Assembly (NCBI RefSeq): GCF_030548295.1
Contig: NZ_JAUOSB010000009.1
Coordinates: 62,001-126,000 of the forward strand
Length of the DNA: 64,000 nt
Reading direction: 5' to 3'
Origin: Wenyingzhuangia sp. 2_MG-2023
GTDB taxonomy: Bacteria > Bacteroidota > Bacteroidia > Flavobacteriales > Flavobacteriaceae
Part shown: positions 14,603 through 33,906 of the stretch, piece by piece
Numbering within the stretch: position 1 is the stretch's first letter
How the letters are laid out: each line of letters starts with the position of its first letter
Program-made: the position numbers and the translations under genes
Notes under the pieces: model-generated
Told to the model about the DNA's origin: nothing
Databases searched by the model: none
What the model saw: the letters and a program-made list of their open reading frames with translations, nothing else

Positions 14603-14624
14603 CTTAATAATTGTTTTAATATAT

Positions 14625-16824: not shown

Positions 16825-16842
16825 AGAAACTTAGTTTTAATT

Positions 16843-16860
16843 AAATTGGTTAACCAATTT
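16843..16860. promoter_or_regulatory. GntR operator, perfect 18-base palindrome before the regulator gene
   Basis: AAATTGGTTAACCAATTT is a perfect palindrome carrying the TTGGTWWACCAA core typical of FadR-type GntR proteins. It lies between the second PL7 gene and gntR, 18 bases before the gntR start, so autoregulation is likely. I did not find a convincing -7/-33 pair around it. Confidence 0.8.
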
Positions 16861-16903
16861 TCACTTTATAAATATAACAAAAATATATAGAAAATTCCTC
16901 ATT

Positions 16904-17803
16904 TTAATGCGTAACATTTAGCTTATAATATTCCACTTTTGCACTTGCCCCTTCATCTCTAGTACTTAGATAATTACCAGCTTTGAAATAATTTTCAAAA
17001 ACACCCCATTTCTGAATATGTATATCATTATATACTTTTGAATTTCCATTCATTATCACTTCCATTCTACCTTCTGATACTTTTACTCCTAAAGTAAATG
17101 TATCAAAACCTACATATTCTGGAAAATTATAACCTGCATCATCTCCCCAAGCATCTGTGTGTAAAATTTCTTCGTCAGATGCATCTAAATCTTTCAATAC
17201 TTTAGTTTTCACTCTTATTTTACCATCTTCCCAATAAATTTTTAGCATTGGAGGTGCGTTGTTGTCATCTTCACCAATCAAATCACGTTGTGCATTGGTC
17301 AAACGTCCATGAATTTGCATGATAATCGTCCGATGATAATCCCCATCACTATCTTTGGTTATTTCTCTCATTGCCAACTCTCCTGTCATGGTTCCTCCTT
17401 CTGAAAATGTCCAATTTGTACTGTTATCTCCTACAACCATCTGTTCTCTTAATTCGGTTCTTGAGTAAGAGGTATTTGCTGTAGTAGCATCACTTGGATA
17501 CGTATAAAAAACTAGAGCTCCTTTGATTGAATCATTGTACATAAATGGCTTTAATATTTCGTTAGTTCCATACTCTAAAATTTCTGGAGAAGAAACTTCT
17601 GTTGGGTTTCCTATAGGTAATGTTACTTTCCAATGGCTTAAATCTATATTTGGTAATTTATATGTTACTTCAGGAGAGGTTTCTTCTTCAGTTTCATTAT
17701 CAATTTCAATATCAGGAAAATTCTCTTCACTAGTAGAACTACAACTTGTAAGTCCTACAATGAAAATAAACACAACCCATTTGTTGATAAATTTTGACAC
17801 CAT
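16904..17803 (-). CDS. PL7 alginate lyase, surface lipoprotein with acidic linker
   Basis: 299 residues. The lipobox is VGLTSC (Cys21). An acidic linker follows, with 10 Asp/Glu among residues 26-45, and then a PL7 jelly-roll domain. The three PL7 signature regions are present: RTELRE (116-121), QIH (164-166) and YFKAGNY (starting near 272), which supply the catalytic Arg, Gln, His and Tyr. PL7 lyases cleave alginate by beta-elimination; Ile in QIH is usually linked to activity on G-rich or mixed blocks. It is probably anchored at the outer membrane. It is the tandem paralogue of the next gene (16 bases apart) and the last gene of the susC operon. Confidence 0.93.
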   Translation of the reverse strand: MVSKFINKWVVFIFIVGLTSCSSTSEENFPDIEIDNETEEETSPEVTYKLPNIDLSHWKVTLPIGNPTEVSSPEILEYGTNEILKPFMYNDSIKGALVFYTYPSDATTANTSYSRTELREQMVVGDNSTNWTFSEGGTMTGELAMREITKDSDGDYHRTIIMQIHGRLTNAQRDLIGEDDNNAPPMLKIYWEDGKIRVKTKVLKDLDASDEEILHTDAWGDDAGYNFPEYVGFDTFTLGVKVSEGRMEVIMNGNSKVYNDIHIQKWGVFENYFKAGNYLSTRDEGASAKVEYYKLNVTH

Positions 17804-17819
17804 CTTGTTTTCTTATGTG

Positions 17820-18740
17820 TTATTTGTGACTAACCTTTAACTTGTAATAATTAACCTTAGCATAAGAACCTTCATCTCTAGATTGAAAATAATTACCTGC
17901 TTTGAAATAATTCTCAAAAATCCCCCACTTTTCCATGTGAATTCCTTTGTAAACCTTGTAATGAATGTTATTTAATACAATTAGCATTTTCCCTTCGGAT
18001 ATTTTAACCTCTAACGTGAATTTTTTATGTCCAACCTCTTGATCAAAGGTGTAACCTTCATCATCACCCCAAGCATCTTCATGTAACATCTCAATTGGTG
18101 TTGCCTCTAAGTTTTTAAGCTCTTTGGTTTTTACACGAATCTTTCCTTTGTACCAATAAATTTTTAAAATTGGAGGTGCATTGTTATCTTTTTGACCTAT
18201 CAAATCTCTCTGTTCATTTGTCAAACGCCCGTGAATTTGCATAATGATAACCTTATGCGGCTTCCCTTCTTTATCTTTAGAAATTTCATCTACTTTTAAA
18301 ACTCCTTTCATTGTACCTCCTTGTTTAAAAGTCCAATTCACATTGTTATTTCCAGGAACCATTTGTTCTCTTAACTCAGAGCGAGAATATTTTGTATTTG
18401 CAGTAGTTGCATTACTCGGATATGCATAAAACACCAATGCTCCTTTGATAGAATCATTGTACATGTATTTTTTTAACCTTTCATCTGTACCATAATTTAT
18501 AATCTCTGGTGGCTCAACATTCATTGCGCTTCCTTTGTGATTTAATTCTGGTGTTGTTACACTCCAATGGCTCAAATCAATTTTTGGTAATTTGTATTTT
18601 TTCTTCTTTTTTTTCTTTGTTTTTTTTACCTCAACTGATTTTTCCGTTTCTGAAACACTACTTGCCTTTTCTTGGCAAGTAGCATTTATAGAAACAAAAG
18701 TTATTAGTATTGCTAAAATTTCTTTATTAAAAAACCTCAT
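17820..18740 (-). CDS. PL7 alginate lyase with polylysine linker
   Basis: 306 residues. The N-terminal signal ends near INATCQ; the Cys22 context is a poor lipobox, so soluble secretion or an atypical lipoprotein are both possible. Residues 39-48 contain nine lysines, forming a strongly basic linker before the PL7 domain. PL7 motifs are intact: RSELRE (120-125), QIH (168-170) and YFKAGNY (near 278). It is well over half identical by eye to the lyase downstream, but its surface is more basic. It cleaves alginate, probably G-containing blocks judging from Ile in QIH. The lysine tract is encoded by two A8 runs. Confidence 0.92.
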   Translation of the reverse strand: MRFFNKEILAILITFVSINATCQEKASSVSETEKSVEVKKTKKKKKKKYKLPKIDLSHWSVTTPELNHKGSAMNVEPPEIINYGTDERLKKYMYNDSIKGALVFYAYPSNATTANTKYSRSELREQMVPGNNNVNWTFKQGGTMKGVLKVDEISKDKEGKPHKVIIMQIHGRLTNEQRDLIGQKDNNAPPILKIYWYKGKIRVKTKELKNLEATPIEMLHEDAWGDDEGYTFDQEVGHKKFTLEVKISEGKMLIVLNNIHYKVYKGIHMEKWGIFENYFKAGNYFQSRDEGSYAKVNYYKLKVSHK

Positions 18741-18762
18741 AATTAAACTAATATATAATTAT

Positions 18763-19617
18763 TTATTCTATCACTGATGAAGTAAACTCTTCAACATAAC
18801 CAGTTGCAGTACCTGTATTTTCTATATGTATAGAAATAGTACTATTACTACCAGAATTGAAAGAAACATCAACCGATTCAAAAGGAGTTTTACCTAATTG
18901 AACAGTACCAGTATGAGACTTTAAAGTTGCTCCTGCAATATCATCAGGACTAGTAACTGTACCTCCCAAGATTGAAACTGTAATTGAAGAAGCATCTCCT
19001 GTTTCTATAGAATATAAATATGAAATTATATAATCTGTATTTGGAGTTACTGCTATGTCTTTTTGATAAGCTACTCTTGCATCTGAAATATTTGGAAATT
19101 TAGCTGCTTTTGTACCAACAAAACTTGAACTAGTAGAAATCTGTATTGTTTTACCTAAATTAGAATCTACCCATGGAGATGTATATTTACCATCATCACC
19201 TGGTTCATCAAAACTAGGATTTAAAATTTTTGGAACAATTGCTAATGGTTCTTCTGGCTCTACCACAACAACTTCTAAAGAAGAAATGCTCTCCACTCCT
19301 AATTTATCAGATGCCGTTAAAGTAACTGTATAAGTTCCTTCTGCAGGAAAAGTGTTTACACCATCTACACCTGTAGATGTATTTCCATCACCATAGTTCC
19401 ACATATAATCAGTAGCACTTGTTGAAGCGTTAGCAAATGTATATGTTAAATAATCGTCTGTTACTGCTGCAGAAAAATTAGCTTCTGGAGGAGTTAAATC
19501 TTCTTTTGAGTTCGCTTCTGGCAATTCATACTCAAATGAATCACAAGAAGTTACTGATATCATCACCATTAAAATTAAAATAGTGATAGCGCTTTTGTAT
19601 TTATTTATTTTTTCCAT
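18763..19617 (-). CDS. PKD-domain surface lipoprotein, putative alginate-binding protein
   Basis: 284 residues. The lipobox is ISVTSC (Cys25). A PKD domain spans about residues 45-120 (YMWNYGDGNTSTGV, GTYTVTLTASD), followed by a beta-rich C-terminal domain (about 130-284) with the LNPSFDEPGDDG and VAYQKDI features of carbohydrate-binding jelly-roll modules. Third in the susC-susD operon, it occupies the position of the surface glycan-binding proteins of polysaccharide loci, so binding alginate or its oligosaccharides on the cell surface is the best guess. No catalytic residues are apparent. Confidence 0.8.
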   Translation of the reverse strand: MEKINKYKSAITILILMVMISVTSCDSFEYELPEANSKEDLTPPEANFSAAVTDDYLTYTFANASTSATDYMWNYGDGNTSTGVDGVNTFPAEGTYTVTLTASDKLGVESISSLEVVVVEPEEPLAIVPKILNPSFDEPGDDGKYTSPWVDSNLGKTIQISTSSSFVGTKAAKFPNISDARVAYQKDIAVTPNTDYIISYLYSIETGDASSITVSILGGTVTSPDDIAGATLKSHTGTVQLGKTPFESVDVSFNSGSNSTISIHIENTGTATGYVEEFTSSVIE

Positions 19618-19648
19618 GTTTTCTTGTTTAAATTAATTTAACACTTTT

Positions 19649-21082
19649 TTAGTAACCTGGATTTTGTTTCATTACTCCATTACTCAAATTGATTTCTCTT
19701 TGAGGAATAGGTAATAACAAATCAGAAGATGAATATTCTAACCCATTTGTTGTTGAAAATGTTGAAAGTATAGATTCAGCTTTTCCGAATCTAAGTAAAT
19801 CAAAGAATCTATGGTTTTCAAAAGCCAACTCTACTCGTCTTTCTAATAACAACTCATCTTTTGTAATTGTTCCATCAGCATCATCTGCTAAACCAGCACG
19901 ATTTCTTACTTCGTTAAAAGAATTTAGAGCATTGATATTGGTGGTTTGTGTACCTCCTGCCAAAATAGCTTCTGCGTGCATTAACAAAACATCTGCGTAA
20001 CGTAATACAATCCAATCGTTCCCTGCTAGCGTAGCATCATTGATAAATGTTTTTCCATTTGTTCCTCCATCTTCACCATTAGGCAAGTATTTTATTACTT
20101 GATTTTGTGTAGTTTGACTAGGATCTATTCTATAAGAATATTCAGTTCTATCACCTCCGTAAGTATCCAAAGCAGTGACTGCATCGGTAGTTACGTAATT
20201 TACTCCTGAGGTTCTACCCACACCATTCATCCATTCTGCTGAAAAGTTCTGACTATCATTTGAAGAGGCATTTTCATAACCTATAGCAAAAATAATTTCG
20301 TTGTTTCTTTCAGAATAAAAAACATCATTAAAATCAGGCATTAACGAAAAACCACTTACCATTACATCTTCCAATAAAACCTGTGCTTGTGTGTAATTAG
20401 GCTCCTCTAATGTTAAATATACTTTTGCCAACATGGTTTGAGCAGCAGCTTTTGATGCTCTGGTTGTATAGGTATTGTCTAAACCAGCTACTGCGGTAGT
20501 CAAGTCACTTACAATTAAATCATAAACACCTGATGTTGCAACTCTTGTGAACTGAACCTCTGTTTCTAATGGAGATACCACTCTATCAATCAATGGAATG
20601 TCTCCAAACAATCTTACTAGATTAAAATAAGCATACGCCCTTAAAAATTTAGCTTCAGCTTCAAAAGCAGCAGCAGTAGTTTCATCGTCAACCACATCTA
20701 AATTCTCTAAAACGATGTTTGCTCTATAAATCACACTATAAAAACTTGCGTAATAATCTGCTACAATTCCGTTTGTTGCTTGTACTGTGTAAAATTCAAA
20801 TTGAGCAGCCTCACCTTCTTGACTTTTAGTTCTGGTATTGTCACTTCGCATTTCTGTCAAATAGAACTCATACATAATTGCATGATTATCGTCAGTGTCT
20901 GTGCTATTCACACCTTGTATAGCATCGTAAATACTAATCAATCCTGTCTCTACTTCATCTGCAGTTTGGTAATATGAATCTGCAGTAATCCCTGAATCGG
21001 GAGTAATCTCTAAGTAATCACTACTACAAGAAGCAATTGTTACTCCAATTATTAGTAATACTATTAATTTTATGTTTTTCAT
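19649..21082 (-). CDS. susD: SusD/RagB family nutrient-binding outer-membrane lipoprotein
   Basis: 477 residues. The lipobox is TIASCSS (Cys19), followed by the SusD N-terminal motif DYLEITPDSGITADSYYQT. TPR-like helices contain FEAEAKFLRAYAYFNLVRLFGDIPL, the hallmark of SusD_RagB proteins. The C-terminus has RRVELAFENHRFFDLLRFG and ends in MKQNPGY, as usual. SusD caps the SusC barrel and binds the oligosaccharide for import, here presumably alginate oligosaccharides. It lies 22 bases after susC and 31 bases before the PKD lipoprotein gene. The symbol is used for the family, not for starch specificity. Confidence 0.95.
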   Translation of the reverse strand: MKNIKLIVLLIIGVTIASCSSDYLEITPDSGITADSYYQTADEVETGLISIYDAIQGVNSTDTDDNHAIMYEFYLTEMRSDNTRTKSQEGEAAQFEFYTVQATNGIVADYYASFYSVIYRANIVLENLDVVDDETTAAAFEAEAKFLRAYAYFNLVRLFGDIPLIDRVVSPLETEVQFTRVATSGVYDLIVSDLTTAVAGLDNTYTTRASKAAAQTMLAKVYLTLEEPNYTQAQVLLEDVMVSGFSLMPDFNDVFYSERNNEIIFAIGYENASSNDSQNFSAEWMNGVGRTSGVNYVTTDAVTALDTYGGDRTEYSYRIDPSQTTQNQVIKYLPNGEDGGTNGKTFINDATLAGNDWIVLRYADVLLMHAEAILAGGTQTTNINALNSFNEVRNRAGLADDADGTITKDELLLERRVELAFENHRFFDLLRFGKAESILSTFSTTNGLEYSSSDLLLPIPQREINLSNGVMKQNPGY

Positions 21083-21104
21083 AATATATATGTTTTTTTA
21101 AGTA

Positions 21105-24100
21105 TTAAAAATCTAGATTCAAACCAAAAGATATCGTTCTATAAATAGGAGATCCTGCTCTTTGGTAACCATAAGTAGTTGGACTTGTTCTATCGATAGA
21201 TTCTGGGTTAAACCCAGTATAATCAGCAGCAGTTAAATACATTAAGTTTTGTCCTGTAGCATAAACACGTAATCCTGAAATTCCATACTTAGATAATAAA
21301 CCTTTAGAAAAATTATACCCAATGTTTATATTACGTAAAGCCACATAAGATGCATCTTGTATGATGTCATTTGTGAATATTTTCTCTTTAATAAAATTTT
21401 GATTTGGTGTAGATGATATAAAATCTTGACCGCTATTAAAGTGATTGAAGATGTATTGATCTCCCATGTTTCTAATTTCTGCACCATGACTTCCTTGGAA
21501 CATGAAACTAAAATCTACGTTTCCAAATTTGAATTCATTTGAAACACTCCATACTAAATCTGGATAAGGATCTCCTAACGCAGCTTTATCTTCATCATCA
21601 ATAATTCCATCTCCATTTAAATCTTTAACATAAACATCTTGTGCTTCACCTCCAACTGGATGAAATGGATTTGCAAGGTATTCTACAGGAATATCTTTAT
21701 CTACAACCCATCCGTAGAATGTAGAAATTGGCTGTCCTTCTAAATTGATCCACTCTGCAGCTCTTTTAGAGTCAACATTTGTGATTTGCCCATTAGAATC
21801 TGCAAAATTAACCAACGTGTTTTTGTTCGTAGTAGCAATAATTGTAGAATTCCAACTAAAATGTTCGTTAGAAATATTTTTTGTTCTCAACTCAAATTCC
21901 CAACCTTCATTTCTAACTTCTCCTAAATTTACCAAAGCACTAGAAAAACCTGTTGTAGTTGATACTGGATTGTCTAAAAGCAATTGATCACTTGTTCTTT
22001 GGTACCAATCGATAGAACCTGAAATTCTATTGTTTAACAAACCAAAATCAATACCTGGGTTGATTTCTACCAATCGTTCCCATTTCAATTCAGGATTTGC
22101 AATATTTAAAGGTGCAAAACCAGACAATACAGCTCCGTCTACACTTGCCGTGTTAGACTGTAACAATGCTAAAGAAGGATAATAATCTACTAAAATATTA
22201 CCTGTACTTAAGCTACTAGTGCTACTGCTTGAATCTGGATCAATACTTCCTGTATTCAAACGGTCATTCCCTGTAACACCATAACTTGCTCTTACTTTTA
22301 ATCTATTTACAACACCACTATCCTCTAAAAATTCTTCATTAGAAATATTCCAACCAATAGAAGCAGCAGGGAAATTACCATACTTATAATCTGAACCAAA
22401 AATAGAACTTCCATCACGTCTAAAACTTAAAGAAGCAAGGTATTTATCATCATATGCATAGTTCAATCTACTCACGTAAGAGATTCCTCTTTTTTGCCAT
22501 TCAAAAGCATCTGCAGCACTAATTGTTGCCGCATTTGTAATTTGTTTTACAGCATCTGAAGTATACCCTGTACCAGAAATTGATGAGAAAAAGAAATTTC
22601 TAGACTCTATAGCCATACCTACAGTTGCACTTACATCATGAACATCTGCAATAGTTGTATTATAGTTAAAAAAGTTATCCGATATAATGTATGTTTCTCC
22701 TTGAGAAATTTCATTCATAGAAGCAGCAGAAGCTCCGTTTCTATTAGACTTTGTACCTTGCCATCTTGTACGTTTTGTATTTTGATAAGATCCTGATAAG
22801 GTTGTTTTAAAACTCAAATCATCTGTAATATTATAACCTGTATAAACACTACCAAACAACTTAAATTTATCATCGTAACGCTCACGCTCTAAAATTTTAG
22901 CAGCTGGATTTGTGTTTGATGTATTCCCTATATCAACCAAAGTACTACCATCTCCATACAAATCATAATTGTTAAAATGATATTGTAGCGCATAATCTCC
23001 AACTTCTACGTCTGGATATACAGTTCTATCTAAATATTGAATTGTATTTTCATCTTGATACGTTGGCAACCAGTTGGTTTGTCTTAAAATATCGTGCGTT
23101 GATCCGTCAAAACGTCTTCTGGTTGTAAAAGAAGGGCTTAAGTTAACTCCAACAGTAAACTTGTCATTCAACTTACTATCAACTTTTAACCTCATTCCGT
23201 ATTTTTCAAAGTTGTCTGTTAACAGAACTCCTTCATCATTTGCATAATTAATACTTGTAGCATATTTTGTTTTTTTGTTCCCCCCTCTTAAAGATAAAGA
23301 GTGACTAGTGATAGCTCCTCCATCAAAAATAACATCTTGCCATGAGCGATCAATACCAATTAATTGCTTGTACTTTGTTTTATCTGACAAATAGATTCCA
23401 CCATGTTCTTCTCTATGTCCTAAAGCAGCAAAAGCAGTAGGGTTGCTAATTTCTAAAGCTTTGTAATATTCACTTTCTGCAGCAGCAGTTTCTGCGATGG
23501 AAAAAGTATATGCATCACTCTGTCTTGCTTCTTTAAAACCAATATATGTACTGTAGCTAATTTTAGTATCTCCTTCAACACCTTCTTTCATCGTAATCAT
23601 TATGATACCGTTAGACCCTTTAGATCCGTAGATAGAAGACGATGCAGCATCTTTTAAAATTTCAAAAGACTCAACATCATTCATATTTAAAGATCCTAGA
23701 AAATCTGAATCTACAATAACTCCATCCACAACAATTAGAGGAGTAGAATCACCAGACATAGAACCAACACCACGTATGGTAATGGTTGGTGCAGCTCCTG
23801 CTTCTCCATCTGTAGCTTGGATATTTACACCTGATACTTGCCCTACCAAAGCATCATCTACCCTTGCCACTGCTATCTGATCTAATTTTTCATTTGTTAC
23901 CTTTGAAATAGCTCCTGTTAAATGTGATTTTTTCTGAGTACCATACCCTACAATTACAATCTCATCCAATTGAGAAGACTCTTCTTCTAAGGCTACCATT
24001 AGTTTTTTCTGATCGTTAATTACGATTTCCTTTGCCTTAAATCCTAAGTAGGAAACTACTAATACGTCTCCCTTTTTTACCGAAATTTGATAATTTCCAT

Positions 24101-24275
24101 CAAAATCCGAAATAGCTCCTTTTGATGTTCCTTTTACTATAATGTTTGCACCAGGAATTGGTGTTTTTTCTGCAGTAGACAAAACAATACCTGTCAGATT
24201 ATAATTCTCCTGAGCAAACAGAGCCATATTGAAAAACAACAAAGCCAATAGCGTTAAACTTTTCTTTAGTTTCAT
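21105..24275 (-). CDS. susC: SusC/RagA family TonB-dependent outer-membrane transporter
   Basis: 1056 residues. After a signal peptide (1-21, ending ALFAQ) comes a CarboxypepD_reg-like domain (about 25-105, NLTGIVLSTAEKTPIPGANI). Then follow the SusC signature LDEIVIVGYGTQKKSHLTGAIS and a plug domain with IRGVGSMSGDSTPLIVVDGV, and a large beta-barrel ending in ISFGLNLDF with the C-terminal Phe. It imports oligosaccharides using TonB energy, together with SusD. It is the first gene of the operon susC-susD-PKD-PL7-PL7. Its transcript should carry an unusually long leader (about 335 bases) under GntR-type operators. Confidence 0.97.
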   Translation of the reverse strand: MKLKKSLTLLALLFFNMALFAQENYNLTGIVLSTAEKTPIPGANIIVKGTSKGAISDFDGNYQISVKKGDVLVVSYLGFKAKEIVINDQKKLMVALEEESSQLDEIVIVGYGTQKKSHLTGAISKVTNEKLDQIAVARVDDALVGQVSGVNIQATDGEAGAAPTITIRGVGSMSGDSTPLIVVDGVIVDSDFLGSLNMNDVESFEILKDAASSSIYGSKGSNGIIMITMKEGVEGDTKISYSTYIGFKEARQSDAYTFSIAETAAAESEYYKALEISNPTAFAALGHREEHGGIYLSDKTKYKQLIGIDRSWQDVIFDGGAITSHSLSLRGGNKKTKYATSINYANDEGVLLTDNFEKYGMRLKVDSKLNDKFTVGVNLSPSFTTRRRFDGSTHDILRQTNWLPTYQDENTIQYLDRTVYPDVEVGDYALQYHFNNYDLYGDGSTLVDIGNTSNTNPAAKILERERYDDKFKLFGSVYTGYNITDDLSFKTTLSGSYQNTKRTRWQGTKSNRNGASAASMNEISQGETYIISDNFFNYNTTIADVHDVSATVGMAIESRNFFFSSISGTGYTSDAVKQITNAATISAADAFEWQKRGISYVSRLNYAYDDKYLASLSFRRDGSSIFGSDYKYGNFPAASIGWNISNEEFLEDSGVVNRLKVRASYGVTGNDRLNTGSIDPDSSSSTSSLSTGNILVDYYPSLALLQSNTASVDGAVLSGFAPLNIANPELKWERLVEINPGIDFGLLNNRISGSIDWYQRTSDQLLLDNPVSTTTGFSSALVNLGEVRNEGWEFELRTKNISNEHFSWNSTIIATTNKNTLVNFADSNGQITNVDSKRAAEWINLEGQPISTFYGWVVDKDIPVEYLANPFHPVGGEAQDVYVKDLNGDGIIDDEDKAALGDPYPDLVWSVSNEFKFGNVDFSFMFQGSHGAEIRNMGDQYIFNHFNSGQDFISSTPNQNFIKEKIFTNDIIQDASYVALRNINIGYNFSKGLLSKYGISGLRVYATGQNLMYLTAADYTGFNPESIDRTSPTTYGYQRAGSPIYRTISFGLNLDF

Positions 24276-24415
24276 TAGTGTTAGTATTAAGTTAATTTAA
24301 TAATAATAATGGGATTTTCCCACAGTGACCACCCTTTAACCCGCTATGACAAAGTGCGTCATATAACAAAGTCTTGGTTCACCTTAACACACTAGATACA
24401 TCGATAATTTTTTAT

Positions 24416-24530
24416 TACTTTTGTAAAAGAGTGTGTTGATTACAGTTCACATACTTTAGATATTACTTCCCTTCAGAATGAAGTAATCTTACCTATAAAG
24501 GATGGGCGTGCACCCGTCCTTTATTTTTTT
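24416..24530 (+). ncRNA. Candidate antisense small RNA opposite the susC leader
   Basis: On the plus strand a -7 element TACTTTTG (24416-24423) matches TAnnTTTG fully; the -33 position holds TAG at 24393-24395 (one mismatch to TTG) with 20-base spacing. An RNA starting near 24430 would contain a hairpin (ATTACTTC/GAAGTAAT, about 24462-24488) and end at a strong intrinsic terminator at 24497-24529, about 100 bases in all. It is fully complementary to the predicted susC leader. Cis-antisense RNAs at this position are known in Bacteroides polysaccharide loci. No expression evidence is available here. Confidence 0.45.
24497..24529 (+). terminator. Intrinsic terminator on the plus strand inside the susC leader
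   Basis: AAAGGATGGG and CCCGTCCTTT pair over ten positions (one T.G wobble in plus-strand RNA) around a six-base loop, followed by ATTTTTTT. On the minus strand the wobble becomes a C/A mismatch and no T run follows, so the structure is oriented for plus-strand transcription although no plus-strand gene precedes it. Confidence 0.75.
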
Positions 24531-24594
24531 GTCTAAATAATAATTTTCATAGTTCTCATCGTTGTTTATTTATAATAGTTAGTTCGTCTTCAAA

Positions 24595-24619
24595 CTGGTT
24601 TACCAATTTGGTTTACCAA
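24595..24619. promoter_or_regulatory. Tandem GntR operators at the susC promoter
   Basis: Two sites, CTGGTTTACCAA (24595-24606) and TTGGTTTACCAA (24608-24619), repeat with a 13-base period. On the minus strand the upstream site begins inside the -7 box TATATTTG, sharing its TTG, so repressor binding would exclude RNA polymerase. Confidence 0.78.
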
Positions 24620-24648
24620 ATATATATATTAGAATCATTATTCACAAA
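24617..24648 (-). promoter_or_regulatory. Bacteroidota-type promoter of the susC operon
   Basis: Reading the minus strand, TTTG (24648-24645) is 20 bases from a perfect -7 element TATATTTG (24624-24617). It lies between the kdgF terminator and susC and overlaps the first operator. Confidence 0.7.
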
Positions 24649-24699
24649 TAATAACCACTATTTATTAGATAAATCACAACAAAAACATAAATATATTAT

Positions 24700-24755
24700 C
24701 AAAATACCACAAAACAGCTTTGTAAACTATAAGATTACAAGCTGCTTTGTGGTAT
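24700..24755 (-). terminator. Terminator of the PL6-PL17-kdgF operon
   Basis: A long imperfect inverted repeat (24704-24725 with 24735-24755; arms starting ATACCACAAA) with a nine-base loop is followed on the minus strand by a short T run. It lies about 120 bases beyond the kdgF stop and just before the susC promoter, separating the two operons. Confidence 0.75.
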
Positions 24756-24873
24756 CAATACTACTTTTAGTGAAATGATTTTTTTTGCGAGGTCAAACAA
24801 ACGAATACATTATCTCCTACAGCAATCCTTTTTCATGCTGTTTTGTATTATTATCAACCCCAAAACTTCTTTT

Positions 24874-25224
24874 TTATTTCTCCATAAAATCCTCTCTAAT
24901 AGGACTAAACACATCTATCAACAAACCTGCTTCTCTACAAATAGCACCGTGCATTACGTGTGGTGGAATGTAAAATGAATCACCTCCTTTAACCATTTTT
25001 GTAACCTCTCCAATTGTCAATTCAAATGCTCCATCTACTACGTATGTTACTTGAGAATGGTAATGCTCGTGCATTTGTCCAATACCTCCTGTTTCAAATT
25101 TTGCTTTTACTAGCATGATTTTATCATCATACCCCATGATTTGACGTTGCACTCCTTCTGCTACTGTTTCCCAAGGTGTCTCGCTGTCGAATAAAAACTC
25201 TTTACTTGCTCCAAATGTTTCCAT
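24874..25224 (-). CDS. kdgF: KdgF-type cupin, 4,5-unsaturated uronate ring-opening enzyme
   Basis: 116 residues, a single cupin domain of the usual KdgF length. Expected metal ligands are visible: His52 and His54 in QMHEHYHSQ, Gln58, and His92 in IPPHVMHG. Asp104 in LLIDVFSP sits where the family has its catalytic Asp. KdgF converts the unsaturated monouronate released by lyases into the linear ketone DEH. It lies 12 bases after the PL17 gene, matching exolyase plus KdgF pairs in other alginate loci. A long terminator follows. Confidence 0.92.
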   Translation of the reverse strand: METFGASKEFLFDSETPWETVAEGVQRQIMGYDDKIMLVKAKFETGGIGQMHEHYHSQVTYVVDGAFELTIGEVTKMVKGGDSFYIPPHVMHGAICREAGLLIDVFSPIREDFMEK

Positions 25225-25235
25225 GTTTCTTTATT

Positions 25236-27482
25236 TTATTTGATTATTGAATAGTGATAAGGCCCCTTCCAGTTAAATACCTTATCGTTGATTATTAAAT
25301 TATGTTCTTTTAATTTTCCTGTATTTTTATTAGCAATGATCAATACTTTTTCATCTCCCCCAGTAAAGACAATGTTTATTGCAGTATAATCTTCATCATC
25401 ATAAATAACTTTTAAATTCTGAATATGAGTTTTAGCATCTACGGAAAATTCTGACACATGGCTATAACCTCCATGAGGTTCTATTACACTTGCAAATACA
25501 GTATTCTGTGCATTTCTTCTAATCATATATCCTGCATCTCTTCTTAAATTAAACTCAGGATCATTTGCTCCAATTCTTGTAAACAACAATTCGTCATTAG
25601 CATTAGTTGCTGTAGAAATAGTATAGAATACTTCGTTGTTTAAAAACGAAAATTGACTTACTTCTGACACAGGTTTTCCTTTAGCCTCTAACCACAAATG
25701 TTGATATCCATATTTTTCTCCTAATGTTTGCATTGTGTTATAAGTTGTGTAATCAAAATTAGTTTCAATTACCTGCCCTTTAAAATAAAACGGAAAATCA
25801 TATTGATTTTTTTGATTAGAAACCACTTTCATTACATCTAGCACTAAAGGTTTTTGAGCTTTTGAATTTTTTAGCATCACTAAAGTTCTCAGCAATAACG
25901 TTCCTGCATATGCATTTTCCTCTTTTGCGCTAATGATTTGAAAATCTTCTTTTGAAATATCAATAAAATTTAATGAAGAATGGTGTTTACTTCCAATTTC
26001 ATACTTACCATTATAATGAGAGCTTTCGTTTTGAATAACGGTATTATGCGCAATACTCTGCTTTGCCCAAGTTTTATTTTCTTTTAAATAATTACCTCCT
26101 CCTTTTTGCTCAATATTTACAAATCTTGCCAATCCGTAATCTTGAATTACTTCATTACCTTGGTTATACATGGAAAAAGATAGTTTGTCATAATGACCGT
26201 GACTCAAACCTTGTGCAGCATATTTAAAAACTAAGGTCAACTCCTCATTATCTGCTCTTAACACACCAACACCTCCTTGTTTTCCATCAGAACCATCTGT
26301 CAAGTTGATAGATTTTTTCTCAAAAGGTTTAGATTTTCCATCTCTTACAGCCAAAGCAACAGCTAATCCAGAATCATCTAACAAGACACCATTTTGCTTT
26401 TCTGCAATGCTTAACAATTGTGGATTCAGCCCTCCATAGTAATACGCAATATCTACAGCAGTTACCAATTCCCTAGAATAATAAGACATTCCTTTTTGAC
26501 CATCATTCAACGGAAAAAACTTTCCATCAGCATCTGTCAAATTCAACAAAGCATTTACTGACTTAAGTAAAACTCCTTTTTTATGTTCAAATATTTTTAA
26601 ATCTGGTCTTACGTTTTGCAATGCTTCTGCAAACACCAAAAAAGGATACATAGCATAACGCTGGTAATAAGGGCCTTCTGTGTAGTATCCGTCAGGTGAA
26701 AATGGTTCGTCAATATTTGCTAAAAATCCTGTTTGCTGACCTTCTTCTCTAATCAAGCCTCCATCATTGTCTTTTGCTCCTACTGGCAATCCATCATCTT
26801 GCAATCCATACAAAGCTCTTTCTATCAATTCGTCGTCTTGCATTACCAAACCAATCATTCCCACCGCTGCATTTCCCCAAGTACTATGATTGTGTACACG
26901 GTTAAAAAACTGTGGATTTTCTACAGAAATAAAATCAGCAAAAGGTTTGAATAGGTTTTTTTCTAATTTTTTTCTTTCTTTTTTAGACAGCCAATCGTAA
27001 ATACAGTCATACGCTTGACTTGTATACACCAACCAGTTAGAATCATTTAAACATTGCCAAAACAACTTCCCTCTAGCATATGATCTTGTTTGTGGATGTA
27101 CTGGCAAATCTTTATACATGGCTTCGTACTGAAACAGCATATTACGAATATACACAGCATAAGTTTCGTCCTTCAAAATCTGAAACAACACTCCTGCTTT
27201 TTGCATGATCAAAAAGTTTCTCTTGTGTTTTTCGTGTGTGTATCCTCCTGAAAAATCTTTGGGTATAGGTGTTTCAATTCCCAATGCTATTTCTGCATCT
27301 ACCTCAGCTTTTACTTTTTTTAGTGTAGCATCAAACAAAGGCACATTTCCTAATTCTTTTCTAATTTTTTCTACTCCTGATTGAGTCAAAATCAAACTAG
27401 GATGTTCTTGTGATCTAACCTCTAAACAAGAAATGAATCCGAGAAATGATAGAAATAATACGATGTTGTGTTTGATGCTCAT
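25236..27482 (-). CDS. PL17 oligoalginate lyase (exo-acting)
   Basis: 748 residues. The signal region is hydrophobic with Cys19 (GFISCLEV), so it is possibly a lipoprotein. The N-terminal (alpha/alpha) toroid, about residues 30-360, carries the PL17 catalytic region: Asn198-His199 in RVHNHSTWGN and the Tyr-rich SPDGYYTEGPYYQRY (262-275). The C-terminal beta-sheet domain is of the heparinase II/III type (YAAQGLSHGHYDKLSF, AHNTVIQNE). PL17 enzymes release unsaturated monouronate from alginate oligomers, probably in the periplasm. It is 26 bases downstream of the PL6 gene and 12 bases upstream of kdgF in one operon. Confidence 0.93.
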   Translation of the reverse strand: MSIKHNIVLFLSFLGFISCLEVRSQEHPSLILTQSGVEKIRKELGNVPLFDATLKKVKAEVDAEIALGIETPIPKDFSGGYTHEKHKRNFLIMQKAGVLFQILKDETYAVYIRNMLFQYEAMYKDLPVHPQTRSYARGKLFWQCLNDSNWLVYTSQAYDCIYDWLSKKERKKLEKNLFKPFADFISVENPQFFNRVHNHSTWGNAAVGMIGLVMQDDELIERALYGLQDDGLPVGAKDNDGGLIREEGQQTGFLANIDEPFSPDGYYTEGPYYQRYAMYPFLVFAEALQNVRPDLKIFEHKKGVLLKSVNALLNLTDADGKFFPLNDGQKGMSYYSRELVTAVDIAYYYGGLNPQLLSIAEKQNGVLLDDSGLAVALAVRDGKSKPFEKKSINLTDGSDGKQGGVGVLRADNEELTLVFKYAAQGLSHGHYDKLSFSMYNQGNEVIQDYGLARFVNIEQKGGGNYLKENKTWAKQSIAHNTVIQNESSHYNGKYEIGSKHHSSLNFIDISKEDFQIISAKEENAYAGTLLLRTLVMLKNSKAQKPLVLDVMKVVSNQKNQYDFPFYFKGQVIETNFDYTTYNTMQTLGEKYGYQHLWLEAKGKPVSEVSQFSFLNNEVFYTISTATNANDELLFTRIGANDPEFNLRRDAGYMIRRNAQNTVFASVIEPHGGYSHVSEFSVDAKTHIQNLKVIYDDEDYTAINIVFTGGDEKVLIIANKNTGKLKEHNLIINDKVFNWKGPYHYSIIK

Positions 27483-27508
27483 AGTTCAGTATTGTTGTTG
27501 CTGTATGT

Positions 27509-29836
27509 TTATTGAATTCCTAAATCTTGTCCGTTAGTTCCTTTATTTTTTAAGGATGATTTTTCTGACAACTTGAAACTTTCTCCATCAAACATTGGAT
27601 TCAACGTCCAAACATTTTGAACCGTATATTTTTGATCTCCTGTAATATTTAATTTCTCAGAATTGTAAAAATTATTGTTTAACACCTCTACTACTGGCTC
27701 TCCAACTACCAAGTGCATATCTACCCCTTTACTATCTTTAAAAATGTTATTTTTTACATCTATTTTTTGAACTCCATATAAAGAAATTGCTGATTTAGCT
27801 TTATTTCTTTTGTTATTCCCTACGTTGTCAAAAACTGAATTTTCTAATTCTAAGAAAGGACCATACGTACTTTCATCTGTACCTCCTCTATACAAATTCA
27901 ATACTGTACACCCAACATCTTTAAAACTATTATTTTTTAGAATTACATATTCCGCATTATAAATTCCAATATCATCTGTTTCTTTATCCAAAGCAACTAC
28001 AGAACCTGTTACGTCTTTAAAGTTTGAATTTTGAATGCTAATAGTATCTGCAAACGTATTTTTATAAACTCTGATAGCATCAAAAGCATAATTGATGTCT
28101 AAGTTGATAAAATCACAATTTTCAATAAACAAATTGTAATTGGTATTCATAGAATATTTACTGGTAGAAATCACGGAATTTCCATTATCATCTGGAGATT
28201 TTTTTCCATCAAATGTCAATCCTTCTAATTGTAACGCTCCATGATTTTGAATTTCAAAAAGTACTTTCTTCTCAAAAAGAACAATTGCTTTTTTTATTCC
28301 AGATGCTTTTACTGTTAACGGGTGGCTTACTGGAATTGTTTTGGTATTTCTATATACTTCTTCTGAACTCAACTCTAAAACATCACCAGGCTGCGAAGCC
28401 AAAGCAGCTTCAACCAATGTATTCAATCCTGCTTTTACCTGAATTGTTTTTCCAGAAGACAATACTACTTTTTTATCCGCTTTAGAATACCAAGAAGCTC
28501 CTGTATTCTCTTTGGTTGCTATTTCTGTTGGAATAGTAGCTCCAACTTTTAAGTTTTTATCCGTTGGCACCAGAAGACCCTTATCATTTAAACTTAAGGT
28601 CAATTTTTCTTTTACAAAACCATCCTTGGTTAACGCGGTAATATTTGGACTGATAAGATTATTTTTAAATGCAATTCCACTAATATCATCGTAAGCAGTA
28701 AACACATCATTTTTAACCTCATTGTAAAAAATATTATCTGCGACAACAGAGTTTAACGGTACTGCACTACGTTCTGCATCACTACCTGCACAAAGCTGTA
28801 CATTGTCACAGTTGATAAATGTATTGTTGGTTACTTTTGCATCTTTTACTTGGTGGTAACGGTTAATTGTAGAATTTGGAACTCCATTCATAATTACAAA
28901 AGCACCTCTAAATCTATTTCCTTTCAAACCAATAGCATAATTATTCACTACCGTTTGTTGGCCATTAATTACTCTAATTCCTCCAGTACATGGCTTATCA
29001 TTTCCAATAAACACATTTCCTTCTACCAAAGTTCCATTACCATGTCTCATGGTTAGTGTACCTCTACATTCATAAAAAACATTGTTTTTATAAATATTTT
29101 TACAAGATTTGTTTGAAATCGTTTCGTGTTCACCATCACATCTATCAAAAAAGTTTGCCTCTACAATTGTTTTAGAATCTGTTAATGAATAATGACTTGT
29201 TCCAATACGCAGTGTTTCACCTCCATTAGAACCTAAATTAGGTCTGGGTCCAAAATAATTATGATCTATTCTATGGTTGTTTTCTTGACTCTCTACACTA
29301 TTCAAACGCACAATCATAGTTACCCCTTTGGTGTTTTTACCTTCTAAATGATTATGATCTACTCTGTTGTTTTTTCCATAAACAGCCAACCAAGTTTCTG
29401 TATCGTGACGTTCTGGATTATTATACCCATCAATTACACACTCTGTTAACCTACAATTATTCGCCAATGTTTTGCTATCTTTTCTAAAAGAAATTACTTC
29501 TGCTGTTGGCGTAAAACCATTGTTAAAAACCAATCCTTTTACTACTAGGTAACTCCCTGAAATTCTAAGATTTGAATTTCCCTGAAGAAAAACCTTACCA
29601 CTTTCTTCTGCTCTTACCGTAATTGCTTTTTCTGCAGTTCCATTTCCCTGAAACAATAGTTCTGCGTTTTTCCAGACACCATTTGCCAACACAATTTCAT
29701 CACCTGGTTCTGCTTCCGCTACCTTTTGATGAAAAGCCTCTACCGTCTTTACATAATTTGAATTTTCTGATGTTTTTGAATTACATGCCATCACAAGAAG
29801 GCAAGCAAAGAGTAAAAGATGTTTGATTTTATACAT
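27509..29836 (-). CDS. PL6 alginate lyase, two-domain lipoprotein
   Basis: 775 residues from the ATG at 29836. A TTG eight codons upstream is in frame but lies within the operator region and spoils the lipoprotein signal, so I reject it. Lipobox LVMAC gives Cys18. The N-terminal parallel beta-helix contains the PL6 catalytic Lys243 (ISNKSCKN) and Arg264 (TMRHGNG). Their 21-residue separation equals that of the Lys/Arg pair in characterised PL6 enzymes. A second beta-helix domain occupies the C-terminal half (about 430-775), as in two-domain PL6 lyases. It degrades alginate, often G-rich. It is the first gene of the PL6-PL17-kdgF operon. Confidence 0.92.
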   Translation of the reverse strand: MYKIKHLLLFACLLVMACNSKTSENSNYVKTVEAFHQKVAEAEPGDEIVLANGVWKNAELLFQGNGTAEKAITVRAEESGKVFLQGNSNLRISGSYLVVKGLVFNNGFTPTAEVISFRKDSKTLANNCRLTECVIDGYNNPERHDTETWLAVYGKNNRVDHNHLEGKNTKGVTMIVRLNSVESQENNHRIDHNYFGPRPNLGSNGGETLRIGTSHYSLTDSKTIVEANFFDRCDGEHETISNKSCKNIYKNNVFYECRGTLTMRHGNGTLVEGNVFIGNDKPCTGGIRVINGQQTVVNNYAIGLKGNRFRGAFVIMNGVPNSTINRYHQVKDAKVTNNTFINCDNVQLCAGSDAERSAVPLNSVVADNIFYNEVKNDVFTAYDDISGIAFKNNLISPNITALTKDGFVKEKLTLSLNDKGLLVPTDKNLKVGATIPTEIATKENTGASWYSKADKKVVLSSGKTIQVKAGLNTLVEAALASQPGDVLELSSEEVYRNTKTIPVSHPLTVKASGIKKAIVLFEKKVLFEIQNHGALQLEGLTFDGKKSPDDNGNSVISTSKYSMNTNYNLFIENCDFINLDINYAFDAIRVYKNTFADTISIQNSNFKDVTGSVVALDKETDDIGIYNAEYVILKNNSFKDVGCTVLNLYRGGTDESTYGPFLELENSVFDNVGNNKRNKAKSAISLYGVQKIDVKNNIFKDSKGVDMHLVVGEPVVEVLNNNFYNSEKLNITGDQKYTVQNVWTLNPMFDGESFKLSEKSSLKNKGTNGQDLGIQ

Positions 29837-29848
29837 AACTACAATAGA

Positions 29849-29873
29849 TTGGTTTACCAAATTGGTTTACCAA
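29849..29873. promoter_or_regulatory. Tandem GntR operators at the PL6 promoter
   Basis: Two identical TTGGTTTACCAA sites at 29849-29860 and 29862-29873 repeat with a 13-base period, exactly as at the susC promoter. The upstream one (minus-strand sense) shares TTG with the -7 box; the other covers the expected transcription start. Confidence 0.82.
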
Positions 29874-29901
29874 ATATATTTATTTAAAACCACTAAACAA
29901 A
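29871..29901 (-). promoter_or_regulatory. Bacteroidota-type promoter of the PL6-PL17-kdgF operon
   Basis: On the minus strand TTTG (29901-29898) is 19 bases from a perfect -7 element TATATTTG (29878-29871). The leader before the ATG at 29836 would be about 30 bases. Confidence 0.75.
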
Positions 29902-30016
29902 AGAATATTCAATAAAATAGTTAATATTTTAAACAATCCTCATTTTAAACCTACATTAATTAAACAAAAAAGCTTTTAAACAACACCTATTGGGACAAAA
30001 TAAAAACTATGGAAAA

Positions 30017-30047
30017 CAAAAAAAGGTCGAAGATTTTCTCTTCGACC
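30017..30047 (-). terminator. Intrinsic terminator of the cca operon
   Basis: A perfect nine-base stem GGTCGAAGA/TCTTCGACC (30025-30033 with 30039-30047) with a five-base loop is followed on the minus strand by a run of eight T. It lies 27 bases past the stop of cca. Confidence 0.9.
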
Positions 30048-30073
30048 CATCACCATTTCTTAATTTGTATATT

Positions 30074-31501
30074 TTATAATTTTGGGGTCAACCCCAATTT
30101 TTTTCCTTTTAACAACATCAATTCAAAAGCTTGTTCGTAATTATTTTCTATACAACCGTCTAAAATAGATTCTTTTATGTGATCTTTTATTTGCCCTATT
30201 TCCCTACATGGTTTCAAATCAAATGTAGTCATGATTGTTTCACCAGAAATAGGAGGTTCAAAGTTACGAACTCTATCTCTCTCCTCAACTTCTTTAATTT
30301 TGTCTCTAACCAATTTAAAATTGCTATGGTAGCGTTTGAATTTGTTAGGGTTTTTAGTTGTGATGTCTGCTTCGCACAAAGTCATCAAACTTTCAATATC
30401 ATCACCCGCATCAAACACCAATCTACGAATTGCAGAATCTGTAACTTCTGAAGCCAATACAATAGGTCTAGAACTTAGCAAAACCATTTTCTGAACAAAC
30501 TTCATTTTGTTATTCAATGGCAATTTTGATCTTTTGAACAATTTGTACACCATTTTAGAACCAACAAATTCATGATTATGAAACGTCCATCCAACTTTTT
30601 TTGAAAAACGTTTGGTAGGTGCTTTTCCAATATCGTGTAACAAAGCAGCCCATCTTAACCAAACATCGTCTGTATTTTCAGAAATGTTATCAACAACTTC
30701 TAATGTATGGTAAAAATTATCCTTGTGTTTCTGTCCCTCTACTTCTTCTACTCCTTTTAAACTGGTCAACTCTGGTAAAATCTGAGTCAACAATCCTGTT
30801 CTTTCCAAATGTAAAAAACCTACAGAAGGCACAGGAGCTTCTAATATTTTATTGATTTCTACCATCACACGTTCTCGTGTAATAATTTTCAATCGTTCTG
30901 AGTTTTTAGTTATTGCAGACAAAGAGTCACTTTCAATAGTAAAATTCAACTGGGTTGCAAATCGAATCGCACGCATCATTCTTAGAGGATCGTCTGAGTA
31001 TGTAATGTCTGGATCTAATGGAGTTCTAATAATTTTAGCTTGCAAATCTTGTACACCATCAAACGGATCTAACAAAACACCTAACGAATTTGCATTCAAC
31101 GAAATGGCCAATGCGTTGATCGTAAAATCTCTTCTGTTCTGATCATCTTGTAAAGTTCCTTCTTCCACTTCTGGATTTCGACTATCTTCCGTATAAGATT
31201 CCTTACGAGCTCCCACAAATTCAACTTCTATATCTTGATACCTTAACATAGCCGTTCCGTAGGTTTTAAACACCTGAACTTTAGGCTTGTTTGGTAACAA
31301 TTCAGCAACTTTTAAAGCCAACTCAATTCCACTTCCTACAGCCACAATATCTACATCTTTGGCAGTACCTCGTTCTAAAATAAAATCACGCACAAAACCT
31401 CCTATCACATAAGCGTCCACTTGCAATTGTTTTGCTGCTTCTGTGATAAATTCAAAGATAGGATGTTGTATTGCTTGTCTGTAGTTTTCTAAAATTTGCA
31501 T
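30074..31501 (-). CDS. cca: CCA tRNA nucleotidyltransferase with HD domain
   Basis: 475 residues. The nucleotidyltransferase head shows GGFVRD (34-39), the metal-binding DVD (49-51) and the [10 protein letters not shown] motif near residue 125. An HD hydrolase domain follows ([10 protein letters not shown]). The enzyme adds or repairs the 3' CCA end of tRNAs; the HD domain in this class can have phosphatase activity. Its start codon overlaps the stop of the TsaC/Sua5 gene by one base, so the two tRNA-related genes are coupled. A strong terminator follows. Confidence 0.94.
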
Positions 31502-32034
31502 TAAGCTCTAATTACGGTTACCTGATTTTGATTTGTGATTTTAAGAATCGTAGATGATTTCTCACAAATTTTATCGTGGTGCAAATTTACTACATAATCT
31601 ACAGCTTGCAAAATGGCAGGGTTTATTTCCGAAAACTGTTTGGGAGTAGGGTCTCCGCTGATATTTGCAGAGGTAGAAACAATCGGTTTTCCAAAATCTG
31701 CAATCATTTTTTTGCAAAAATCATCCGAAGCAATTCGAATTGCAATTGTATTGTCTTTACCAACAGCATTTTTTGCCAAACCCATAGGATGCTCATAAAC
31801 GATGGTAGTTGGTTGAGTTACTTGGGATAAAATGTCTAATGCTTTTGAGGGTACGTTTTGAATATATTTCTGAAGCATTTCTAAAGAATCTACCAAAATA
31901 ACCAAACTCTTGGTTTCTTCTCTTTGTTTTATTTCATAGATTTTTGCTACCAGTTTTTCGTCGGTAGCATCGCAACCAATTCCCCAAACAGTGTCTGTAG
32001 GATACAAAATGGTTTTATTTTCTATTGAAAACAT
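31501..32034 (-). CDS. L-threonylcarbamoyladenylate synthase (TsaC/Sua5/YrdC family)
   Basis: 177 residues, the short YrdC-only form. Family motifs are [13 protein letters not shown] near the N-terminus, the [13 protein letters not shown] stretch with the ATP-contacting basic residues, [10 protein letters not shown], and [15 protein letters not shown]. The enzyme makes threonylcarbamoyl-AMP for the t6A37 modification of ANN-decoding tRNAs. It is coupled to cca (one-base overlap) and is 24 bases downstream of the ABC transporter gene, so all three could share a transcript. Confidence 0.93.
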
Positions 32035-32058
32035 CCTTCTTAATTTATCAAATCGTTG

Positions 32059-33906
32059 TTATTCTTCTATACCTAACACTTCCAAAGATTGCAAACTTAC
32101 TAGTTTGGAATACATTCCTCCCATGGCAATCAATTCCTGATGTGTACCTTGCTCAAGAATTCTGCCTTTTTTCATCACAATAATCAAATCGGCATTTTTT
32201 ACGGTAGACAACCTATGTGCAATAACAATAGATGTTTTGTTTACCATCATGTTTTCCAAAGCATCTTGTACTACTTTTTCTGACTCTGTATCCAATGCAG
32301 AAGTTGCCTCGTCCAAAATCATAATTGGCGGATTTTTTAAAACAGCTCTTGCAATAGCAACACGTTGACGTTGCCCTCCTGACAAAGAACTTCCTCCATC
32401 ACCAACATTGGTTTGATACCCACGTTCAAATTCCGTAATAAAGTTATGAGCATTCGCAATTTTTGCAGCATTCACAATAGCTTCTTCCGAAGCGTTGTCT
32501 ACTCCTAAAGAAATATTGTTAGCAATTGTATCATTAAACAAAATAGAATCTTGAGCCACAATTCCCATTTGATTTCTTAAAGATTCTGTTCTTACAGTTC
32601 TAATATCCATTCCATCAAAAAAGATATTCCCTTCATTTACATCATAAAATCTAGTCACTAAATTGGCTAATGTAGACTTTCCACTTCCAGATTCTCCTAC
32701 CAAAGCCACTGTTTTTCCTTTAGGAACGGTCAAACTAAAATCTTTTAGCACATATTCATTTTCGTATTTAAAAGAGACATTTTCAAATCTAATTTCTTTT
32801 TCAAAGCCTTGAATCACTTTTGCTCCTTCACTATCTTTTAATGGGTTTACCGCATCTAAAATAAAGCGTACTCTTTCTGATGCTGCGTTTCCACCTTGAA
32901 TAGCATGACTTGCTTTTGCCATTGCTTTTGCTGGAGTTAAAATTTGATAAGCCAATCCCATGTAAGTGATAAATGCCCCCCCTGTCAATGTTTCTTCTAA
33001 CAAAACCAAAGTTCCTCCGTAAACAAATAATATAGAAATAGTAAAAACTCCTAGGAACTCACTCAAAGGACCTGCCATTGCCATTCTGGCTCCAATCACA
33101 TTGTTCATATGATTGATTTCTTCTGATTGTGCTTTGAATTTATTTTTAAAAAATGCTTCTGCCGTAAAGTTTTTAATGATTTTAATTCCACCCAAAGTTT
33201 CTTCTATTCGCGAAAGTAAATTTCCTTCTAGCGCAAAAATATCTCCAGATATATTTTTGATTGTTCTACCCAATCTGGAAATTAAAAACCCTGCTACAGG
33301 TAAAAACACCAATACAAATATGGTCAACTTCCAACTGATCCAAAGCATTGCTCCTAAGGTAAACAATAACGTTAATGGCTCTCTACCAATCATCATTATA
33401 GCATTCATAAATGATGATTTTATCGTAGTAATATCTGCGGTCATTCTTGAAATCAAATCTCCTTTACGCTCTCCTGAGAAAAAAGACACGTGTAATGATG
33501 TTACTTTGTTGTAGACATCATTCCTTAAATCTTTTAAGACTCCGTTGTTTAAATAAGTCATGTATACCATAGACATATATGCAAACAAATTCTTTAAGAA
33601 AAAGGCAATAATCATAAATATCATCATCCATATCAATGTACTAAACGCTCCTTTATCTTGTGTATTGGATGTGATGAAATAATTCATAAACGCTTCTAAC
33701 GTTTCTTTATTTAAACTACTAAAACCATCAAAATTTGGCTTTTCATAAACCTTTTCTCCTTCTTTAAACAATACATTCATTACAGGCATTAAAGAAAGCA
33801 TAGACAATGCTGAAAATAATGAGTATAGAAAGTTAAAAACAACACTTAATGCAAAATTAAATTTGTAAGGTGTTAGGTATTTTATAAAATGTCTTAAGTT
33901 TTTCAT
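32059..33906 (-). CDS. ABC transporter, fused permease and ATPase (MsbA-like exporter)
   Basis: 615 residues. The N-terminal membrane domain has about six transmembrane helices (to about residue 320). The C-terminal ATPase shows Walker A GESGSGKST, the LSGGQRQR signature, and Walker B ILDEATSALD with the H-loop IAHRLST. Half-transporters of this type form homodimers that export lipids, including the lipid A core (MsbA), or peptides. Substrate cannot be read from sequence. Its position beside the surface-polysaccharide genes is compatible with a lipid-linked glycan, but the gene is common next to tRNA genes in related genomes. Confidence 0.88.
   Translation of the reverse strand: MKNLRHFIKYLTPYKFNFALSVVFNFLYSLFSALSMLSLMPVMNVLFKEGEKVYEKPNFDGFSSLNKETLEAFMNYFITSNTQDKGAFSTLIWMMIFMIIAFFLKNLFAYMSMVYMTYLNNGVLKDLRNDVYNKVTSLHVSFFSGERKGDLISRMTADITTIKSSFMNAIMMIGREPLTLLFTLGAMLWISWKLTIFVLVFLPVAGFLISRLGRTIKNISGDIFALEGNLLSRIEETLGGIKIIKNFTAEAFFKNKFKAQSEEINHMNNVIGARMAMAGPLSEFLGVFTISILFVYGGTLVLLEETLTGGAFITYMGLAYQILTPAKAMAKASHAIQGGNAASERVRFILDAVNPLKDSEGAKVIQGFEKEIRFENVSFKYENEYVLKDFSLTVPKGKTVALVGESGSGKSTLANLVTRFYDVNEGNIFFDGMDIRTVRTESLRNQMGIVAQDSILFNDTIANNISLGVDNASEEAIVNAAKIANAHNFITEFERGYQTNVGDGGSSLSGGQRQRVAIARAVLKNPPIMILDEATSALDTESEKVVQDALENMMVNKTSIVIAHRLSTVKNADLIIVMKKGRILEQGTHQELIAMGGMYSKLVSLQSLEVLGIEE

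Follow-up and report, generated by a model that had tools for sequence, protein, structure and literature searches.

A conserved plus-strand RNA element opposite the susC leader of alginate loci in Flavobacteriaceae: a candidate cis-antisense small RNA

Introduction

The Flavobacteriaceae rank among the major degraders of alginate from brown algae. The known control of this process is exerted by the GntR repressor AusR, which in Zobellia galactanivorans binds operators present in one, two or three copies (PMC7874173). Several groups of small RNAs have been described at the susC homologues of Bacteroides. The DonS family comprises cis-antisense RNAs of 78–128 nt, which are divergent from susC homologues and lower their expression (PMC7366714); DonS itself belongs to an N-glycan PUL, and its mechanism is given as unknown in the source (PMC11697453). 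FopS of B. thetaiotaomicron, with 14 paralogues, acts on susC homologues in trans (PMC11697453), and 32 PUL-associated antisense RNAs have been reported in the same species, with both negative and positive correlations (PMC10994844).

In the present study we analysed a 64,000-nt stretch of the genome of Wenyingzhuangia sp. 2_MG-2023 (the window), for which an earlier note had proposed a DonS-type antisense RNA of about 100 bases opposite the predicted susC leader of an alginate locus. A literature search by titles and the opening parts of abstracts, with most subscription papers outside its scope, revealed no report of such an RNA at alginate loci.

Results

The alginate locus and its RNA element

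The minus strand of the window carries a row of alginate genes encoding an SDR protein, an MFS protein, a GntR/FCD regulator, two PF08787 lyases (PL7), a PKD protein, SusD, SusC, a cupin, and PL17-like and PL6-like proteins. These were identified with Pfam, except for the SusD, PL17-like and PL6-like proteins, which we take to be such by our own assignment. From the position of its promoter box, the susC leader is predicted to be about 337 nt long and to enclose the small RNA entirely, as the earlier note had suggested for an RNA of about 100 bases. The coordinates of the features are given in Table 1.

Table 1. Features of the RNA element and the surrounding alginate locus (positions in the window)
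Feature	Sequence or size	Position	Strand	Remarks
Promoter box of the small RNA	TACTTTTG (TAnnTTTG)	24416–24423	+	no TTG at −33
Predicted small RNA	~103 nt	24428–24530	+	model match 24430–24527, 105 bits; start deduced from the box
Hairpin 1 (5′)	AGTGTGT with ACATACT	24430–24436 with 24449–24455	+	covarying
Hairpin 2	ATTACTTC with GAAGTAAT	24462–24469 with 24480–24487	+	stem nearly invariant; loop CCTTCAGAAT
Hairpin 3 and U tract (intrinsic terminator)		stem 24495–24524, T run to 24530	+	
SusC-like TonB-dependent transporter	1056 aa	21105–24275	−	TIGR04056, 761.6 bits; head to head with the RNA
GntR/FCD regulator, AusR-like		16126–16824	−	Pfam; same gene row as susC
Presumed AusR-like GntR operators (two palindromes)	TGGTTTACCA	24596–24605, 24609–24618	either	
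Promoter box of the susC operon	TATATTTG	24617–24624	−	position 342 of the region starting at 24276
TGGTNNACCA site upstream of gntR (one)	TGGTNNACCA	16847–16856		
TGGTNNACCA sites upstream of susC (two)	TGGTNNACCA	starting at 24596 and 24609		
TGGTNNACCA sites upstream of the PL6-like gene (two)	TGGTNNACCA	starting at 29850 and 29863 (to 29872)		

The five TGGTNNACCA sites of the window compare with 0.73 expected. The three promoters that carry them (gntR, susC and the PL6-like gene) probably form an AusR-like regulon, in which the RNA accompanies the susC promoter alone; a model search detected no RNA at the gntR and PL6-like operators, and a single copy in the whole home genome.

The complete TAnnTTTG box noticed earlier is present, as is the plus-strand terminator, whose 12 stem pairs are the most among 16 sites in 14500–34400 (expected 8.2, sd 2.8). 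The second hairpin placed between them also exists, and is preceded by a 5′ hairpin (hairpin 1) not listed before. Because the corresponding box of Flavobacterium psychrophilum lies at −12 to −5 (PMC9723704), the RNA is predicted to start at the base of hairpin 1, near 24428, which gives a length of about 103 nt. This segment folds at −31.3 kcal/mol (z −4.80), a value equalled by none of 200 shuffles. The weakness acknowledged in the earlier note, an imperfect −33 element (TAG), is real, and TTG near −33 was likewise not enriched in 64 relatives aligned on the box.

As had been claimed, the region lacks a plus-strand gene: no plus-strand ORF of at least 80 aa in the window overlaps the RNA. 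A small peptide was also rejected, since closed frames inside the RNA reach at most 22 aa and their length is scattered across 85 loci. Rfam returned nothing above the gathering cut-off at 24270–24720, where three matches fell far below it (E 2.3–5.2), and a known RNA family was therefore dismissed. The sole Rfam match above the cut-off in the window was the S4-Flavobacteria ribosomal protein leader (RF03141; 53422–53454, minus strand).

Distribution of the RNA in Bacteroidota

A blastn search of 149 genomes (own included) with the leader as query gave 12 loci in other genomes whose alignments cover the RNA wholly or in part: three in the same genus (76–77% identity) and nine in other genera (68–81%). 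Most of the remaining matches were short chance or operator matches, and one further genome (G050) aligned at 66%. Thirty blastn loci (L009–L038) were checked for SusC, of which 18 (own included) were retained and 12 dropped. Box, hairpin 2 and T run occurred in this order in all 18, a selective count, since the nearest upstream box was taken. Seven of the 18 were excluded from alignment A2 on account of unequal loops or arms.

A covariance model (R2) applied to 397 Flavobacteriaceae genomes gave 86 matches at E ≤0.01 in 83 genomes, each with one copy except for G032, G300 and G312 (two each). The carriers span 65 of the 237 genera sampled. A further model (R3) yielded 15 matches in 395 genomes of the phylum, where about four chance matches are expected at the cut-off used. 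The six at E <1e-4 (own included) all belong to Flavobacteriaceae; of the nine weaker ones, three lie inside this family and six outside it, the latter without an adjoining alginate-locus gene.

A second set was collected with a 24-base terminator pattern alone, which retrieved at least 116 stretches from named genomes, partly overlapping the numbered ones. Among the matches listed, R3 recognised all 116 stretches (58/58 and 58/58; one is cut by the stretch end), and these include Zobellia uliginosa, Z. russellii, Z. amurskyensis and Kordia algicida. The following counts cover the 103 of the 116 listed stretches that could be oriented, the other 13 having failed the orientation rule yet matching R3. 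Among these listed stretches, the exact box stands at the expected distance in 87 of 103, and an operator with an opposing promoter box in 100 of 103; susC is head to head with the RNA in 95, the other eight being seven that end within 350 nt and one with gntR.

Genomic context in relatives

The context was analysed in 88 loci, i.e. the window and 87 fetched regions of about 12 kb each (85 from the search of 397 genomes and two from blastn), in which the model matches span 79–119 nt. In 83 of the 88 the RNA is head to head with susC, on the predicted strand and opposite the susC leader, which bears out the placement proposed earlier. Beyond the RNA, an operator and an opposing promoter box were found in 85, the exceptions being L144, L147 and L148; L144 and L148 are weak matches that lack the usual layout. 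The last operator begins 24–99 nt (median 82) past the model end, and 82 susC loci carry either two (43 loci) or three (39 loci) operator copies. The distance from the susC start codon to the RNA start is 44–169 nt (median 129; 83 loci).

In three loci (L076, L108 and L132) the module of RNA, operator and promoter fronts gntR-MFS-SDR instead of susC. The RNA is, in refinement of the earlier proposal, part of an operator/promoter/leader module. G300 carries both kinds of module, namely L076 (the gntR type) and L111. A different arrangement was seen in L147 and L280, which come from one genus: a divergent RNA-like match lies between susC and an upstream gntR, and the usual operator is absent.

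With the window excluded, the neighbouring SusC shares at least 44% identity with that of the window in 51 loci and is more distant in 31. The likeness of the RNA to that of the window did not follow this division (median 62.6% beside close SusC, 41 scored; 64.2% beside distant SusC, 26 scored). The independence of the two likenesses led us to regard the module as maintained separately from the gene that follows it.

Covariation, conservation and strand

Alignment A4 holds 71 distinct sequences from the 88 loci; of the 17 left out, 16 had E >1e-6 and L124 (E 1.4e-9) was removed by hand for its long insert. In A4, 95.4% of the cells pair and 14 of 25 pairs have changed on both sides, a level reached by none of 500 shuffles (which do not preserve relatedness), in an alignment whose fitting to the model favours the structure; sliding of the partners reduces pairing to 44–59%. 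Both-side changes affect all six modelled pairs of hairpin 1 and seven of the 11 of hairpin 3.

The hairpins differ in what is conserved. In the arms of hairpin 1 the commonest base reaches frequencies of 0.56 and 0.65, i.e. the pairing is kept and the letters are not, as against 0.91–0.93 in the arms of hairpins 2 and 3 (0.93 and 0.91 in hairpin 2). The spacing of the hairpin 2 arms varies, being 10 nt in 48 of the 71 sequences, 9 nt in six and 8 nt in 17.

The RNA strand is the plus strand, because both the G-U versus A-C asymmetry and the U tract point to it. G-U cells number 200 on the plus strand as against 19 if the element is read on the minus strand (89 rows, one locus twice). At least seven T in nine positions follow the terminator core on the plus strand in 75 of 76 loci, and on the minus strand in two; this score covers 76 of 85 loci, L144, L147 and L148 having been excluded beforehand. 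Weaker R3 matches on the opposite strand occurred in several loci, as is expected of inverted repeats.

In 64 of the 88 loci the 25 nt upstream of the RNA include an exact box, compared with 2.9% of shuffles; the other 24 loci lack it. The earlier note had made its proposal depend beforehand on conservation of box and terminator; every locus kept has the terminator, and most loci here, like most of the listed stretches of the second set, have the exact box. The observation is confirmed, and was understated. Conservation and covariation also led us to reject a chance hairpin combined with a chance box.

Association with PL7 lyases

PL7 (PF08787) occurs in 99 of the 397 genomes, i.e. in 78 of the 83 carriers of the RNA as against 21 of the 314 non-carriers. 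With five genomes that have the RNA only and 293 that have neither, the odds ratio is 218, uncorrected for ancestry. The five carriers without PL7 are G017, G218, G292, G407 and G446; that of G407 (L148) is probably a false match, and in the other four a PL17-like gene lies close to the RNA. Of the 21 genomes with PL7 only, 17 gave some R3 match at E ≤1. Five of these matches lie at susC with an operator (L273, L275, L276, L279 and L281) and one (L280) at susC without it, the remaining fetched ones not being at susC.

Hairpins at other susC genes of the home genome

In a survey covering 30 of the 46 SusC matches of the home genome, terminator-like sites were seen on the antisense strand at nine of 30 susC genes and on the sense strand at six of 30, counts that stand without a shuffled control. 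Upstream of two of these genes (L306 on contig C122 and L318 on C1) the antisense strand carries strong terminator-like hairpins that share the core AATCGGAA.ATG ... CAT.TTCCGATT; identity between the two regions is 73% over 81 aligned bases. They may represent a second family of antisense RNAs.

Discussion

The alginate RNA resembles DonS in being divergent from a susC homologue and overlapping its predicted leader (head to head in 83 of 88 loci), and its predicted length of about 103 nt falls within 78–128 nt. The two differ in that repression by DonS was established by experiment, whereas repression by the alginate RNA is deduced, and in that DonS-type RNAs belong to PULs for host or mucosal glycans, whereas the alginate RNA lies in a PUL with PL7-, PL17- and PL6-type lyases and a GntR operator. 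Strong matches to the RNA model were confined to Flavobacteriaceae among the 395 genomes of the phylum. The alginate RNA is laid out like DonS but probably forms a sequence family of its own. The link to susC homologues is shared with FopS, but instead of a set of paralogues there is one copy per genome (two in three of 83), opposite its presumed target. The locus is of the same kind as that controlled by AusR in Z. galactanivorans, and the loci with the RNA also carry two or three operator copies; the RNA would probably add a further layer of control in the same leader.

We consider it reasonably likely that the element encodes a cis-antisense RNA against the leader of the AusR-controlled alginate operon, which lowers leaky expression of the susC operon. 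This antisense interpretation is supported by (i) conservation of the RNA in 83 of 397 genomes, its head-to-head position and the operator with opposing promoter beyond it, (ii) the G-U cells and U tract of the plus strand, the compensatory changes, the upstream box and the tie to PL7, and (iii) the presence of the RNA in all 116 of the stretches listed that were found by their terminator alone, and a layout and length as in DonS. It is weakened by the lack of an exact box in 24 of 88 loci and in 16 of 103 listed stretches, by a −33 TTG that is not kept, and by the three loci that front gntR instead of susC. Repression, moreover, is not a given, since the PUL antisense RNAs of B. thetaiotaomicron include positively correlated pairs.

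The sequence comparisons establish the element with its strand, fold and position; transcription, pairing, repression and timing are predictions. In the proposed mechanism, the small RNA would have a TAnnTTTG promoter of its own, from which it would be transcribed opposite to the long leader of the AusR-repressed operon, ending before the operator and promoter of that operon. By pairing with the leader it would bring the leaky expression of susC and the following genes lower than AusR repression does by itself. Strong induction by alginate would then outrun the RNA, or silence it by transcription through its promoter. As the RNA starts 44–169 nt from the susC start codon, covering of this codon seems unlikely, and the RNA would rather act via leader decay, premature termination or collision. 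The small RNA probably tunes the timing of alginate digestion in many marine Flavobacteriaceae.

Antisense pairing with a perfect complement works whatever the letters. Hairpins 2 and 3 keep letters that such pairing does not need, so they are probably read in some other way, by a protein, by another RNA or by the sense leader. A dual RNA, i.e. a cis-antisense RNA to the AusR-controlled leader that would also interact with an RNA-binding protein or a second mRNA through its nearly invariant hairpins 2 and 3, is a possibility that we put forward tentatively. The same near invariance, next to a hairpin 1 that keeps its pairing alone, would suit an RNA acting mainly in trans, in which an RNA-binding protein or another mRNA is the partner of hairpin 2 and of the hairpin 3 loop, and the position merely couples expression to the locus; the independence of RNA and SusC likeness (medians 62.6% and 64.2%) and the repression of susC in trans by FopS RNAs of B. 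thetaiotaomicron (PMC11697453) point the same way. We nevertheless regard a mainly trans-acting RNA as unlikely, since 85 of 88 loci have it in the leader of a promoter that carries an operator, complements of the conserved loops elsewhere in 85 loci number 5, 5, 9 and 0 as against permuted means of 9.1, 3.9, 8.1 and 1.5, and a 12-mer complement occurs at no second place in the home genome. Counts near the permuted means in the 85 loci also led us to reject in-locus trans sites for the loops.

The remaining alternatives dispense with the RNA product or with its strand. The opposed promoters are about 200 bp apart (24416 and 24624), which would allow polymerase collision on the susC leader to be what matters; however, a product with covarying and nearly invariant hairpins makes it improbable that antisense transcription acts without its RNA. 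More doubtful still is an element that acts on the minus strand as a structured susC leader or attenuator, without an antisense transcript. Hairpins are present on both strands, the sense leader has a fold z of −2.10, and weaker R3 matches occur on its strand in several loci, but the asymmetry of G-U cells (200 vs 19), the restriction of the U tract to the plus strand, the plus-strand box in 64 of 88 loci and the stronger plus-strand fold (z −4.80) argue against it. Least credible of all is an element working at the DNA level, for instance an insulating terminator or a binding site: in the DNA, hairpin 2 forms an almost perfect inverted repeat, but the spacing of its arms varies (10, 9 or 8 nt), no plus-strand ORF of at least 80 aa requires termination, and hairpin 1 covaries as RNA. 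The variable arm spacing also led us to discard a DNA operator.

If the cis-antisense reading is true, an unrecognised layer of control acts on the central alginate transporter operon in 65 of the 237 genera sampled, and antisense control of susC extends beyond gut Bacteroides. If the RNA is dual, this second layer would be family-wide and would turn alginate use into a sharp, possibly bistable switch. The nearly invariant hairpins 2 and 3 offer a direct handle for the identification of an RNA-binding partner in marine Bacteroidota.
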